Assembly: GCF_009741275.1 (NCBI RefSeq)
Contig: NZ_WOWS01000003.1
Span: forward strand, 124,001-188,000
Source: Winogradskyella endarachnes
Lineage (GTDB): Bacteria > Bacteroidota > Bacteroidia > Flavobacteriales > Flavobacteriaceae
Length of the DNA stretch: 64,000 nt
Direction of reading: 5' to 3'
In this document: positions 19,112 through 23,616 of the stretch, piece by piece
Position numbering within the stretch: the stretch's first letter is position 1
How the letters are laid out: each line of letters opens with the position of its first letter
Made by a program: the position numbers and the translations under genes
Notes under the pieces: model-generated
Database searches by the model: none
What the model was told of the DNA's origin: nothing
Seen by the model: only the letters and a program-made list of their open reading frames with translations

Positions 19112-20428
19112 ATGAGTACAAAAACGATTCCTTACGTGCCAAACAAGGTGAAAGACATGTCGCTTGCGGCTTGGGGAAGAAAAGAAATTAATTTAGCCGA
19201 AGCAGAGATGCCAGGTTTAATGAGTTTACGTGAAGAATATAAAGACGAGCAACCATTAAAAGGTGCTCGTATTGCAGGTTGTTTACATATGACTATTCAA
19301 ACTGCGGTTTTAATTGAAACATTACAAGCTTTAGGTGCAGAAGTAACTTGGAGTTCTTGTAACATTTTCTCAACACAAGATCAAGCAGCTGCGGCCATTG
19401 CGGCGGCAGGAACTGCGGTGTACGCATGGAAAGACATGACGGAAGAAGAGTTTGATTGGTGTATTGAGCAAACCCTTTTCTTTGGTGAGGATAGAAAACC
19501 ATTAAACATGATTTTAGATGATGGTGGCGATTTAACTAATATGGTTTTAGATAAATACCCAGAATTAGCTGAAGGCATCAACGGTTTATCTGAAGAAACT
19601 ACAACTGGTGTTCACAGACTTTACGAGCGTGTAAAAAATGGAACTTTACCAATGCCAGCAATTAACGTAAATGATTCGGTTACAAAATCTAAATTTGATA
19701 ATAAATATGGTTGTAAAGAATCTGCAGTAGATGCCATCCGTAGAGCAACCGATGTTATGTTAGCAGGAAAACGTGTAACGGTTTGTGGTTATGGTGATGT
19801 AGGTAAAGGTACAGCAGCTTCCTTTAAAGGTGCTGGTTCTATTGTAACGGTTACTGAAATTGACCCAATTTGTGCATTACAAGCTGCAATGGATGGTTTT
19901 GAAGTGAAGAAATTAGAAACTGTAGTTGGTAATAGCGATATCATTATTACAACAACAGGAAATAAAGATATCGTTAGAGCTGAGCATTTTGAAGCTATGA
20001 AAGACAAAACCATAGTTTGTAATATAGGACACTTTGATAACGAAATTCAAATGGCTTGGTTAAACGAAAACTATGGAGATACTAAAGATACTATTAAGCC
20101 ACAAGTTGATAAGTATACGATTAACGGAAAAGAAATTATTATTCTTGCTGAAGGTCGTTTAGTAAACTTAGGTTGTGCAACTGGTCACCCAAGTTTTGTG
20201 ATGAGTAACTCATTTACAAACCAAACCTTAGCACAAATTGAACTTTGGAATAACAAAGAAGCTTACGGAAATGATGTGTATATGTTGCCTAAGCATTTAG
20301 ATGAAAAAGTAGCAAAATTACACTTAGCTAAAATTGGTGTTGAGTTAACTGAACTTAAAGATTACCAAGCAGAATATATAGGTGTAACGGTTGAAGGTCC
20401 TTATAAGCCTGAGCACTATCGTTATTAA
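19112..20428 (+). CDS. ahcY: Adenosylhomocysteinase
   Basis: Hydrolyses S-adenosylhomocysteine to adenosine and homocysteine, relieving product inhibition of methyltransferases and returning homocysteine to methionine. The 438-residue protein is full length and close to the family consensus: [13 protein letters not shown] near residue 57, [11 protein letters not shown], the [13 protein letters not shown] block with the active-site Lys and Asp, the NAD-binding [12 protein letters not shown] at about 226-237, and the C-terminal [11 protein letters not shown] that reaches into the neighbouring subunit. It is monocistronic with its own terminator. Confidence 0.98.
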
Positions 20429-20467
20429 TATCATTCCTGCGAAGGTAGGTGAAACGTAATTATAAAT

Positions 20468-20497
20468 TAAACCCTTGCAGAAATGTGAGGGTTTTTT
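20468..20497 (+). terminator. ahcY terminator
   Basis: Stem AACCCT / AGGGTT (20470-20475 and 20488-20493) with a 12-base loop and a run of six T residues, 40 bp after the ahcY stop. Confidence 0.75.
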
Positions 20498-20534
20498 GTT
20501 GGTGTACAATTGAAACCAAAAAAGGAACAATAAT

Positions 20535-20580
20535 GTCACTTCGAGTGATTTGAGTGTAACGAGCAAATAGTATCGAGAAG
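20535..20580 (+). repeat. Repeat unit F1
   Basis: Begins GTCACTTCGAGTG, where CACTTCGAGTG is a small palindrome, and ends GTATCGAGAAG. Its middle part is the most divergent of the four F copies. Confidence 0.9.
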
Positions 20581-20615
20581 CCAATGAGTAAAATTATACA
20601 TGATATTTCTAGAAA

Positions 20616-20665
20616 GGTTCTCGATACAAAATTGCAGAAAGAGCAATTTCACTCGAACTGACGAC
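20616..20665 (-). repeat. Repeat unit R1
   Basis: Begins GGTTCTCGATACA on the plus strand and ends ACTCGAACTGACGAC. It holds an inner hairpin AAATTGC / GCAATTT. Identical to R2 over all 50 bp. Confidence 0.9.
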
Positions 20666-20706
20666 TAAGTTTCAATTGTACTTTAGATTTAGTTATAAAC
20701 CAAAAC

Positions 20707-20752
20707 GTCACTTCGAGTGATTTGAGAGGCACCAGCATATTGTATCGAGAAG
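20707..20752 (+). repeat. Repeat unit F2, left flank of the nuclease gene
   Basis: Same ends as F1. The nuclease start codon follows 17 bp after it; the bases between (TTTCTATATTTAGAAC) resemble the start of the spacer in the empty units. Confidence 0.9.
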
Positions 20753-20768
20753 TTTCTATATTTAGAAC

Positions 20769-21056
20769 ATGAAACAATCTTATGTATATATTTTAAAATG
20801 TTCAGATGAAAGTTATTACACAGGAATAACTTCAAATCTCACAAAAAGATTACATGAACACAAAACAGGAAAACATAAGGAGAGTTACACATATAATCGA
20901 AGACCATTAACTTTAGTGTTCTATGCGGAATTTACTGATATTACATTAGCTATTCAGACAGAAAAACAAATTAAGAAATGGTCGAGGGCGAAAAAAGAAG
21001 CATTAATAAATGAAGAATTTGATAAGCTTCCGAATTTAGCAAAAAAGAAGTTTTAA
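20769..21056 (+). CDS. GIY-YIG nuclease family protein inside repeat array
   Basis: A 95-residue single-domain GIY-YIG endonuclease of the UPF0213/YhbQ type. The GIY half is YVYIL (5-9), the YIG half is YYTGI (16-20), and the catalytic residues of the family are present: Arg27 in NLTKRLHEH and Glu65 in the QTEKQIKKW helix, so it should be active on DNA. There is no extra DNA-binding domain, only a basic C-terminal tail. Its stop codon is one base away from repeat R2 and its start is 17 bp from F2, so gene and repeats form one unit. Such genes are common in Flavobacteriia; their job is unknown. Confidence 0.93.
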   Translation: MKQSYVYILKCSDESYYTGITSNLTKRLHEHKTGKHKESYTYNRRPLTLVFYAEFTDITLAIQTEKQIKKWSRAKKEALINEEFDKLPNLAKKKF

Positions 21057-21057
21057 A

Positions 21058-21107
21058 GGTTCTCGATACAAAATTGCAGAAAGAGCAATTTCACTCGAAC
21101 TGACGAC
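21058..21107 (-). repeat. Repeat unit R2, right flank of the nuclease gene
   Basis: 50 bp, identical to R1. It starts one base after the nuclease TAA stop. Confidence 0.9.
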
Positions 21108-21149
21108 ATTACAACAATTGAAACCTTATATTAAATATGAATCCACCAC

Positions 21150-21195
21150 GTCCCTTCGAGTGATTTGTGAGGTACGAACAAATTGTATCGAGAAG
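21150..21195 (+). repeat. Repeat unit F3
   Basis: Begins GTCCCTTCGAGTG; one base of the leading palindrome differs from F1, F2 and F4. It ends TTGTATCGAGAAG. Confidence 0.9.
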
Positions 21196-21231
21196 CTATT
21201 AAGTTGAAATTATTCTGAATATTTCTAGAAA

Positions 21232-21281
21232 GGTTCTCGATACAAAATTGCAGAAAGGGCAATTTCACTCGAACAGACGAC
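21232..21281 (-). repeat. Repeat unit R3
   Basis: Differs from R1 and R2 at two bases, one in the inner hairpin loop (AAAGGG) and one near the end (ACAGACGAC). Confidence 0.9.
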
Positions 21282-21322
21282 TGAGTTTCAATTATCCTTT
21301 AAGTTTTATACTAACCTATAAC

Positions 21323-21368
21323 GTCACTTCGAGTGGTTTGTGAGGCACGAGCAAATTGTATCGAGAAG
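21323..21368 (+). repeat. Repeat unit F4 (unpaired)
   Basis: Closes the array without a partner R. The bases after it (from 21369) no longer match the spacer of the other units, which suggests that the array edge is a deletion or insertion boundary. Confidence 0.88.
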
Positions 21369-21387
21369 CTAAAACACCAAATGCATA

Positions 21388-21421
21388 AAGACCTCAAAGT
21401 TTTAAAAAACAATGAGGTCTT
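21388..21421 (-). terminator. Terminator of the S46 peptidase gene
   Basis: Perfect 9 bp stem AAGACCTCA / TGAGGTCTT with a 16-base loop, 60 bp after the peptidase stop. The T tract on the minus strand is weak. The same stem recurs after tyrS (55375-55412). Confidence 0.6.
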
Positions 21422-21480
21422 ATATTATTAACGCAGTAAGTGAAATTTAGTAACTATCAATTAGCCAATTAAACCAACAA

Positions 21481-23616
21481 CTAACCACGCTTAGTACGTT
21501 TTTTCTTCTTTTTCTTAGATTTAGGACCATCCTTTTTAGGATGAACCAAAGTCATTTCATCAATTAAGTGCGTTGCACCAGCATATTTATCAACTATAAA
21601 AAGTACGTAGCGTAAATCTACCATAATGTTACGGCAGATTTCTGGGTCGTAATTCATGTCGCTCATAGTACCTTCCCAAACACGGTCAAAGTTTAAGCCG
21701 ACTAAATTTCCTTCGGCATCAATAGCAGGACTCCCAGAATTTCCACCAGTGGTATGGTTTGTTCCTAAAAAGCAAACTGGGACTTTTCCATTTTTATCAG
21801 CATACTTACCGTAATCTTTAGCGTTGTATAAATCTCGTAATTTTTGTGGTACATCAAACTCGTAATCGCCAGGAATGTATTTTTCAATAACACCATCTAA
21901 ATAACTTACTGGATTATAATAAACCGCATCTCTTGGCGAATAGCCTCTTACTTGTCCGTAAGTGACACGAAGTGTGCTATTAGCATCTGGGAAATAACGT
22001 GCGTTTGGTAATGCTTCCATTAATGCTGTCATATATTTAGTTTGTAAGGCTGTAATTGGTTCGTTTTTTTGTTGGTATTCAGGATTTAGTGTGTTAAAAA
22101 ACTCATCAATAATTGGTTTTGCATACTCATAAGCAGCATCATTGTTTAAGTTTTTTATAACCGTTTCTGCATCGCCTTCAAGCAAGCTTAAAGCAGAATC
22201 TAAATTAGTAAAAGCTGTTTTGTCATAGATAGACGCATCAACGTCTTTACCATATAAAGGCATCACATTGAGGTAAACCCCTTTGTCTAATTCTGCATTA
22301 TAATTTTTATGAATACCTTGTAATTGACCAGTTAACACTTCTTTTCCTCTTTCTAAATTTTCTGGGTTAGCAACTAAAGCTTGTTCAACTTGGTAAGCTC
22401 TAAAGGTCATTTGCATTAATTCATTGGTTACTAAAAAGACTTCAATAAAGTTTCTACGTTTTATATTAATTGGTGCGAAGTCTTTGTACAGTCTATCAAA
22501 TTCCGGAAGGATATTTCCATATTTATCCTCTAGCCCTTTTTCTTTCAAGGCTTTTGTAAATGTAGCTTCAAATTCTTTACGTTTTTCAACCGCATTACTT
22601 TTTTTAATTCCTAAATTCTCGCCAATCCATTTTTTCCAAGCGTTAGCAATTCTGGCTTGTTTAGAGGCATATTTAATTCTTATGTCATCGCTTTCTTTCA
22701 TTTTTTGGTCAATGACTTTTAAAGCCGCTTCTCTAATCGCAATATTTGTAGGATTAAATTCTTTGGTAATATGCTCAATGGCAACAGCAGGTAGATACTC
22801 GCTTGTTGTACCTGGAAAACCAAAAACCATTGTAAAATCCCCTTCTTCCACACCATCTAAAGATATTGGTAAGTAATGCTTTGGTTTATATGGCTTGTTG
22901 TCTTTGCTATATTTTGCTGGTCTATTATTAGCATCTGCATAAATACGAAACATAGAAAAATCGCCAGTATGTCTAGGAAAAACCCAGTTGTCTGTGTCAC
23001 TTCCAAATTTACCAATACTGCTTGGTGGTGCACCAACTAAACGAATATCTTCAAAACGTTCGGTTACAAAAAGGAAGTATTGATTGCCTTCATAAAATGC
23101 TTTTGTCTTTACGTCTTGCCAAGCTTCTTTTGGCCAAGTTTTTAAAGCTGCGTTTGTGTTTTTTGAGATTAATGATTGTTTTTCAGATTCGGTCATTGTA
23201 TCAGTTATTCCTTTTAAAGCAACATCGGTTACATCGTGAATACTGACAATAAATTCAATAAATAAACCTTTGTTTGGTAATTCGTCTTCTAGAGACATGG
23301 CCCAAAACCCATCTTTTAAATAATCGTTTTCTAGAGATGAATGCGATTGAATTTGTCCAAAACCACAATGATGATTGGTTAATACCAAACCTTGGTTTGA
23401 AATCACTTCACTTGTGCAACCACCATTAAAATGACCAATGGCATCCTTTAAGCTAGAATTGTTAACATCGTAAATATCTTGAGCCGTTAATTTACTGCCC
23501 AAACTTTGCATTTCAGTTTCGTTCATGCCTTCTAAAAGAGAAGGAATCCACATACCACCTTGTTGGGCAGACACTTGAAAAACAATAAATAGAAATAAAA
23601 TTTTTATAAAGCGCAT
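21481..23616 (-). CDS. S46 family dipeptidyl peptidase (DPP11-like)
   Basis: A 711-residue secreted serine exopeptidase that removes dipeptides from peptide N-termini in the periplasm. Signal peptide 1-18 (cut near VSAQ). The catalytic histidine is in LTNHHCGFGQIQ (His83), the aspartate is in the DNWVFPRHTGDFSMFR region, and the serine is Ser629 in GGNSGSP. Arg645 in NFDRVWEG is at the position where, in known S46 enzymes, Arg selects acidic P1 residues (DPP11) and Gly selects hydrophobic ones (DPP7), so Asp/Glu specificity is likely. The C-terminus is a run of Lys/Arg, which is unusual for this family. Confidence 0.93.
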   Translation of the reverse strand: MRFIKILFLFIVFQVSAQQGGMWIPSLLEGMNETEMQSLGSKLTAQDIYDVNNSSLKDAIGHFNGGCTSEVISNQGLVLTNHHCGFGQIQSHSSLENDYLKDGFWAMSLEDELPNKGLFIEFIVSIHDVTDVALKGITDTMTESEKQSLISKNTNAALKTWPKEAWQDVKTKAFYEGNQYFLFVTERFEDIRLVGAPPSSIGKFGSDTDNWVFPRHTGDFSMFRIYADANNRPAKYSKDNKPYKPKHYLPISLDGVEEGDFTMVFGFPGTTSEYLPAVAIEHITKEFNPTNIAIREAALKVIDQKMKESDDIRIKYASKQARIANAWKKWIGENLGIKKSNAVEKRKEFEATFTKALKEKGLEDKYGNILPEFDRLYKDFAPINIKRRNFIEVFLVTNELMQMTFRAYQVEQALVANPENLERGKEVLTGQLQGIHKNYNAELDKGVYLNVMPLYGKDVDASIYDKTAFTNLDSALSLLEGDAETVIKNLNNDAAYEYAKPIIDEFFNTLNPEYQQKNEPITALQTKYMTALMEALPNARYFPDANSTLRVTYGQVRGYSPRDAVYYNPVSYLDGVIEKYIPGDYEFDVPQKLRDLYNAKDYGKYADKNGKVPVCFLGTNHTTGGNSGSPAIDAEGNLVGLNFDRVWEGTMSDMNYDPEICRNIMVDLRYVLFIVDKYAGATHLIDEMTLVHPKKDGPKSKKKKKKRTKRG

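Follow-up and report, generated by a model that had tools for sequence, protein, structure and literature searches.

The best-described systems close to the locus analysed here are the RAYT (TnpA-REP) REPtrons and BIMEs, in which tetranucleotide-tagged hairpins lie in opposite pairs and tandem arrays next to a cognate nuclease gene, repeats outnumber genes, and one enzyme may go with more than one REP class, as do classes y, z1 and z2 of E. coli (PMC8266576, accessible text). The same source proposes that TnpA-REP has been domesticated, and gives tnpA-REP as mostly single copy. A second group of repeats, the CGTC-tagged REPs, has been reported in five phyla. The accessible text of the 2013 survey that describes them (PMC3733652) says that they lack a dedicated transposase, with only few and fortuitous transposase associations, and defines the repeats by a CGTC (or TGTC or CCTC) tag at one end, a stem of 8-9 bp, a loop of 4-5 nt and a CCA-like tail.

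The window, a 64-kb stretch of Winogradskyella endarachnes DNA, contains a compact array of palindromic repeats with a small nuclease gene inside it. We give a probability of roughly two in three to the reading that this is a REP array with a dedicated GIY-YIG, Slx1-like nuclease, a counterpart of the RAYT REPtron in which the nuclease would cut its cognate tagged hairpins and host repair would spread the units. The features are as follows:

20535-20580, + strand: REP F1, C-type hairpin with a TGTC tag, 46 bp
20616-20665, - strand: REP R1, G-type hairpin with a CGTC tag, identical to R2, 50 bp
20707-20752, + strand: REP F2, 16 bp 5' of the GIY-YIG gene, 46 bp
20769-21056, + strand: GIY-YIG nuclease gene, 95 aa, inside the F2-R2 spacer
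21058-21107, - strand: REP R2, 1 bp 3' of the nuclease stop codon, 50 bp
21150-21195, + strand: REP F3, 46 bp
21232-21281, - strand: REP R3, 50 bp
21323-21368, + strand: REP F4, 46 bp; its right-hand flank resembles that of a solo repeat at the same locus in a relative (G071)

When coordinates and distances were re-derived, the four F and three R repeats that the first-pass annotation had placed in alternation around the gene proved exact to the base. The F repeats start 172, 443 and 173 bp apart, the gene-free F-R spacers measure 35 and 36 bp, and R1 and R2 are 100% identical, with R3 at 96%. A profile built from the seven repeats recovered all of them in the 64-kb window at E values of 4e-14 to 1e-12 and gave no further match there below E 0.48; the array is not a product of chance. 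F and R belong to a single palindrome family, called family A here, since F and the reverse complement of R can be laid over each other in the order (C/T)GTC - stem - loop - stem, and the tags of the seven repeats are CGTC or TGTC. A covariance model, whose search scored no more than about 103 candidates in each genome, counted 46 family A copies in the window's genome, including a gene-free array of five pairs and several lone pairs; against these stands one nuclease gene of the window's clade (clade A, nucleases at least 67% identical), repeats outnumbering genes as in RAYT systems. The same genome also carries, between putative restriction-modification genes (labels by eye), four 154-bp units with two same-direction family A copies each (L018:4069-4622). 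No known RNA family matched positions 20400-21500 at Rfam gathering scores.

How does the locus compare with the described systems? Judged by position and type, the gene appears to be flanked by its cognate REPs, as in a RAYT REPtron. The locus would work in a like manner, yet it is not a RAYT REPtron: the Pfam match is to GIY-YIG and not to an HUH/Y1 tyrosine transposase, and the GTAG foot tag of those systems is replaced by CGTC or TGTC. Several clade A gene units are found in one genome in G016, G022, G036 and G063, whereas tnpA-REP is mostly single in the accessible literature. Family A has the same CGTC/TGTC tag as the CGTC-tagged REPs (CGTC-1 to 4, Neisseria dRS3, Rickettsia RPE) but, set against the definition in the accessible survey text, its stem is longer and interrupted and its loop larger (11 columns in the model), so that it falls outside the stem and loop lengths given there. 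UPF0213 (YazA, YhbQ) proteins and Slx1 share the GIY-YIG domain and include the nearest solved structures; however, the yazA-type genes seen in Bacillus and Radiobacillus keep the same gene order and show no repeats, whereas the window gene lies in an array. GIY-YIG homing endonucleases likewise have the catalytic domain, but the window protein has no further Pfam domain and is flanked by repeats of its own.

The window protein matches the GIY-YIG domain (PF01541, E 4.1e-17) and no other Pfam domain. Among 20 aligned relatives Tyr7, Tyr17, Gly19, Arg27 and Glu65 are invariant and His31 nearly so, which bears out the earlier claim that catalytic Arg27 and Glu65 are kept; domain and catalytic Tyr, Arg and Glu together place it in the GIY-YIG superfamily. 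The structure model is a bare GIY-YIG domain (mean pLDDT 80, with an unreliable tail from residue 84). Its closest solved folds are UPF0213 proteins (1zg2, 1ywl) and Slx1, then I-TevI and UvrC, at Z 7.8 at best, a level used only jointly with the sequence match. Slx1 is grouped with other structure-selective nucleases in a family said to include YhbQ and YazA (PMC7017083, accessible text), and with these nearest folds it is a natural guess that a nuclease of the window type would cut at a hairpin or branch. In searches for other roles, three proteins returned 0 PADLOC anti-phage defence families, and 24 phage records matched, all below 60% identity; the readings as a defence gene or a phage gene were discarded on these results. 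In G036, G028, G001, G035 and G023, open frames of 424-437 aa begin with a GIY-YIG domain that shares 49-53% identity with the window protein (L202, L203, L204, L205 and L051); L202, which was scanned, has a Pfam match to that domain only.

Support for a dedicated pairing comes from comparing the flanks of 95 small GIY-YIG genes from 34 genomes, namely those of 75-199 aa with flanks among 103 genes of relatives. Non-syntenic pairs, defined as those with no neighbour ORF in common within the DNA examined, had a flank repeat in common across genomes in 21 of 21 cases at 80% identity or more and in 83% (n=150) at 65-80% identity. The share fell to 1-2% of cross-genome pairs below 45% identity (n=2,655) and to 0 of 106 for same-genome paralogues below 55%. 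In flank likeness the best homologue beat the best same-genome paralogue by 59 to 7 (76 to 3 when syntenic pairs were included).

The nuclease tree tells the same story. Repeat types were motifs written after viewing the flanks, blind to the proteins, and this typing was used because single linkage had merged 164 of the 183 genes into a single cluster; the tree holds 183 of 199 genes, with few alignment columns for its rows. Among the 52 relatives' genes with one repeat type on both flanks (27 genomes), the 8 types required 8 changes, the minimum being 7; shuffling gave a mean of 33.6 and never fewer than 28. A set of 90 genes and 9 types needed 13 changes against 48.2 shuffled, and genome of origin was hardly clustered at all (41 changes against 44.4). 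Type by type, changes numbered one for A, F and H, two for E and C, three for D and G, four for B2 and seven for B. Among the 95 relatives' genes, 52 had the same type on both flanks, 25 a type on one flank and 18 no recognised type; for 73 named genes, described below, the figures were 33, 16 and 24. By flank-pair score, 34 of the 103 relatives' genes came out no higher than the 95th percentile of the controls (178 genes). By this comparison of sequences, the type of GTC-tagged palindrome goes with the nuclease clade and not with the genome, and the window locus is one of many nuclease-repeat pairs. The frames of four nucleases (L041, L042, L043 and L048) extend upstream into the flanking repeat, for example as in-frame AERSRS or SAVERS; start codons annotated inside these repeats may be wrong.

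The window's own genome gives a small example. Of its eight GIY-YIG matches, five are small. The second small nuclease has flanks with a TGTCATTCC(T)-type palindrome, a 172-bp repeat lying on both sides, and the third, more weakly, a CTGAAC..TTCAG-type inverted pair, between putative hisH and hisA (labels by eye). No such flanks were seen for the remaining two, one of which lies in a putative restriction-modification locus. Three of the five small nucleases thus carry three different repeat families.

Across the genus, 60 genomes were covered in two sets (37 and 23), and clade A is present in at least 17 of them, in G029 as an end fragment only. There are 24 full-length copies (23 intact and one with an in-frame stop, the end fragments in G011 and G029 being excluded). 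The first-pass annotation had proposed a REP/RAYT-like pairing of repeat and nuclease, to be abandoned if genes of this subfamily mostly lacked flanking F and R repeats. The pairing is supported: family A repeats stand on both sides of 22 of the 24 and on at least one side of all 24, the one-sided copies being those of G006 and G081. The gene is not confined to the F-R gap. It lies there in G000, G022, G063, G036:C43, G036:C10 and two of the three G016 copies, but in the R-F gap in G011, G030, G031, G036:C39, G071 and G077, other genomes being mixed. When clade A genes were paired across genomes, 26 of the 95 pairs had a neighbour ORF in common within the DNA examined, so that descent at an unchanged site accounts for part of the spread.

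The locus after ahcY, where the window array lies, is found in many states. In G063 two gene units stand in tandem at a distance of 441 bp, together with empty units, while G000 has one gene and G036 a broken copy; gene-free arrays of 12 and 6 repeats occupy it in G022 and G016, and it is reduced to two decayed repeats in G078, one solo repeat in G071 and none in G080. The picture of one autonomous element plus two deletion copies stands as one option for the window, array size varying at the same locus (G063 against G071) by what may have been growth or shrinkage. The gap between ahcY and a peptidase gene (window positions 20429-21480) holds a small gene in five of seven sequences; in G000 and G071 this gene is absent and repeats take its place.

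What is the unit that such arrays are built from? Among 173 family A repeats, the outermost base pair of the hairpin is C-G in 79 and G-C in 58, and none of these 137 with both bases readable has C-C or G-G (36 are unreadable at one base or more). All 63 readable pairs of neighbours in opposite orientation are heterotypic (a further 16 could not be read), at 17 of 17 places, and in each of the 4 readable pairs of same-direction neighbours the two are alike, in counts where copies within one array are not independent. Flanking repeats differ likewise, by eye, in 14 of the 17 genes of types D and E that could be read on both sides, out of 25 listed; the exceptions are L192, where they are alike, and L209 and L050, which have no C or G at that position. 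Because opposite neighbours are heterotypic, the unit has two defined ends, as expected of a mobile unit, and the comparison of copies shows the basic clade A unit to be a pair of opposed hairpins with two different ends, one C-type and one G-type. The outermost position would be unpairable in a long F-R hairpin, so that single hairpins, and not the long one, seem to be what is kept.

Pairing of nuclease and repeat is found outside the phylum as well. A plasmid collection gave 74 matching records, of which 12 were chosen and viewed with 220 bp per side, and 4 more served as controls. By eye, CGTC-type REPs enclose the gene in Azospirillum lipoferum (where sufB and sufC are its neighbours) and in Neisseria gonorrhoeae (dRS3-like by sequence), and do so with one tag altered in Aeromonas caviae. 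By the definition in the accessible survey text, the Azospirillum and Neisseria flanks fit in tag, stem, short loop and tail, and those of Aeromonas do so with one altered tag. Other palindromes stand on both sides of the gene in Planktothrix, Sinorhizobium, Novosphingobium and Methylobacterium, and on one side in Photobacterium and Rhizobium tumorigenes (downstream) and Sphingomonas (upstream). For Legionella lytica and Bacillus yazA, no flanking repeat was seen by eye in 220 bp on each side. The flank-pair score was above the 95th percentile of controls at 7 of the 12 viewed loci. The Planktothrix nuclease (L063) is plasmid-borne, with an MmeI-type restriction gene on one side and drmA, a DISARM gene, on the other.

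A larger sample consisted of named loci picked by protein, the best 80 of 567, of which 7 were dropped for short flanks and 73 had both. Among these 73 of the best 80, a CGTC-type tag is present in both flanks at 36, against 1 of 170 neighbour genes, and in at least one flank at 58, against 21 of 170. When only intergenic DNA of the best 80 loci is counted, the tag occurs in 65 of 84 stretches beside the gene and 15 of 135 elsewhere, at densities of 6.1 and 0.76 per kb. Loci with both flanks tagged come, by record titles, from Pseudomonadota, Planctomycetota, Nitrospirota, Omnitrophota and Bacteroidota among others, and the plasmid flanks read by eye add Cyanobacteriota. Two nuclease matches, L118 (Methylotenera) and L137 (Calditrichaeota), have an in-frame stop and are perhaps decayed copies.

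Does the nuclease raise the number of its repeats? Family A copies are more numerous in the 17 genomes with clade A (median 46) than in the 43 without it among the matches listed (median 19; p 0.0004; second sample alone, p 0.0055), counts that saturate near 103 in one genome search and 150 in another. Clade E repeats behave likewise (9 with and 1.5 without the nuclease, p 0.0006). Clade D shows no significant copy-number link to its nuclease (p 0.08), and family A counts are also raised with the clade E nuclease (p 0.012); the link is not specific, nor is it clean across clades. For these comparisons with clades D and E the genomes counted as having the nuclease were chosen manually, and G020, which carries a 67% relative of clade E, was treated as lacking it. 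The first-pass annotation had named repeats in genomes lacking the gene as evidence against a pairing, and such genomes are, to the letter, common: the repeat occurs in 39 of the 43 genus genomes without clade A among the matches listed, 21 of them with 20 copies or more. Of three sites set against six relatives, one aligned closely; the pair is present there in G080, G034, G032 and G063, absent in G003 and replaced in G071 by a degraded or other repeat, and the G003 state is best read as a loss and not an insertion. At the other two sites no junction came out clean, and the three together showed neither a fresh insertion nor the target duplication expected of an insertion sequence or MITE pair.

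By the REPtron-like reading, the nuclease would recognise the conserved (C/T)GTC tag along with the hairpin cognate to it, or else a cruciform or branch made by that hairpin, for example on the lagging-strand template, and would nick or cut there. Host repair copying from another array could then spread, multiply or shrink the repeat units, the nuclease gene in the spacer being copied along with its unit, and gene-free pairs would be non-autonomous units that outlast gene loss. Against this reading, GIY-YIG nucleases are not known to have strand-transfer chemistry. The domain serves selfish spread in homing endonucleases such as I-TevI and the products of phage Seg genes. Homing is the alternative that we weighed most, the nuclease cutting gene-free repeat pairs and being copied into them by recombination, with the repeats as mere landing sites spread by other means. 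It would account for a gene that occupies the spacer of a repeat pair, for the clustered gene units of G063, G016, G022 and G036, and for the gene-bearing, gene-free, broken and solo states of one ahcY locus among relatives. We nevertheless consider it unlikely, as it leaves the multiplication of the repeats, their two defined ends and the change of type with nuclease clade unexplained.

The repeats might also be moved by another enzyme, such as a RAYT elsewhere in the genome, the GIY-YIG gene merely riding in the arrays, and the many genomes with repeats and no matching nuclease would be as expected. This is improbable, given that repeat type goes with the GIY-YIG tree and not the genome (27 genomes), that the pairing recurs in distant phyla, and that the transposase associations of CGTC repeats are few and fortuitous in the accessible survey text (PMC3733652). 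Still less probable is a nuclease domesticated to process hairpins or cruciforms at its repeats for the host, at replication blocks or mRNA ends, with spread incidental: branch-cutting Slx1 is among the nearest solved relatives and TnpA-REP, too, is proposed as domesticated (PMC8266576, accessible text), but the pattern looks selfish, with several similar copies together in certain genomes, others that are broken, and a patchy distribution. That palindromic repeats, plentiful as they are in these genomes, simply accumulate next to small genes of any kind where intergenic gaps are long is hardly credible, because the neighbour-gene and intergenic controls (1/170; 15/135) lie far below the nuclease flanks and Bacillus yazA has no repeat in 220 bp per side.

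We thus return to the REPtron-like reading, and consider it beyond the window. At slightly better than even odds, small GIY-YIG nucleases would be the dedicated, hitherto unrecognised mobilisers of the CGTC-tagged super-family of bacterial palindromes, a class of nuclease-only mobile elements in several phyla, in which the protein core reads the GTC tag, clade-specific residues read the stem, the enzyme cuts asymmetric hairpin pairs and the host copies the unit. Among the matches listed in the open-access literature, as far as its accessible text goes, none linked GIY-YIG to REP, RAYT, REPIN, BIME, dRS3 or palindromic repeats, and relative to the accessible text of the CGTC REP survey (PMC3733652) the pairing is new and involves an enzyme of another fold than RAYT. 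It suggests that a widespread kind of bacterial repeat owes its spread to small GIY-YIG nucleases, partners that had long been missing. With a cognate nuclease matched to its repeats by type in dozens of genomes, the spread of CGTC repeats becomes directly testable. If this is true, two unrelated enzyme folds took on the same kind of tagged hairpin.
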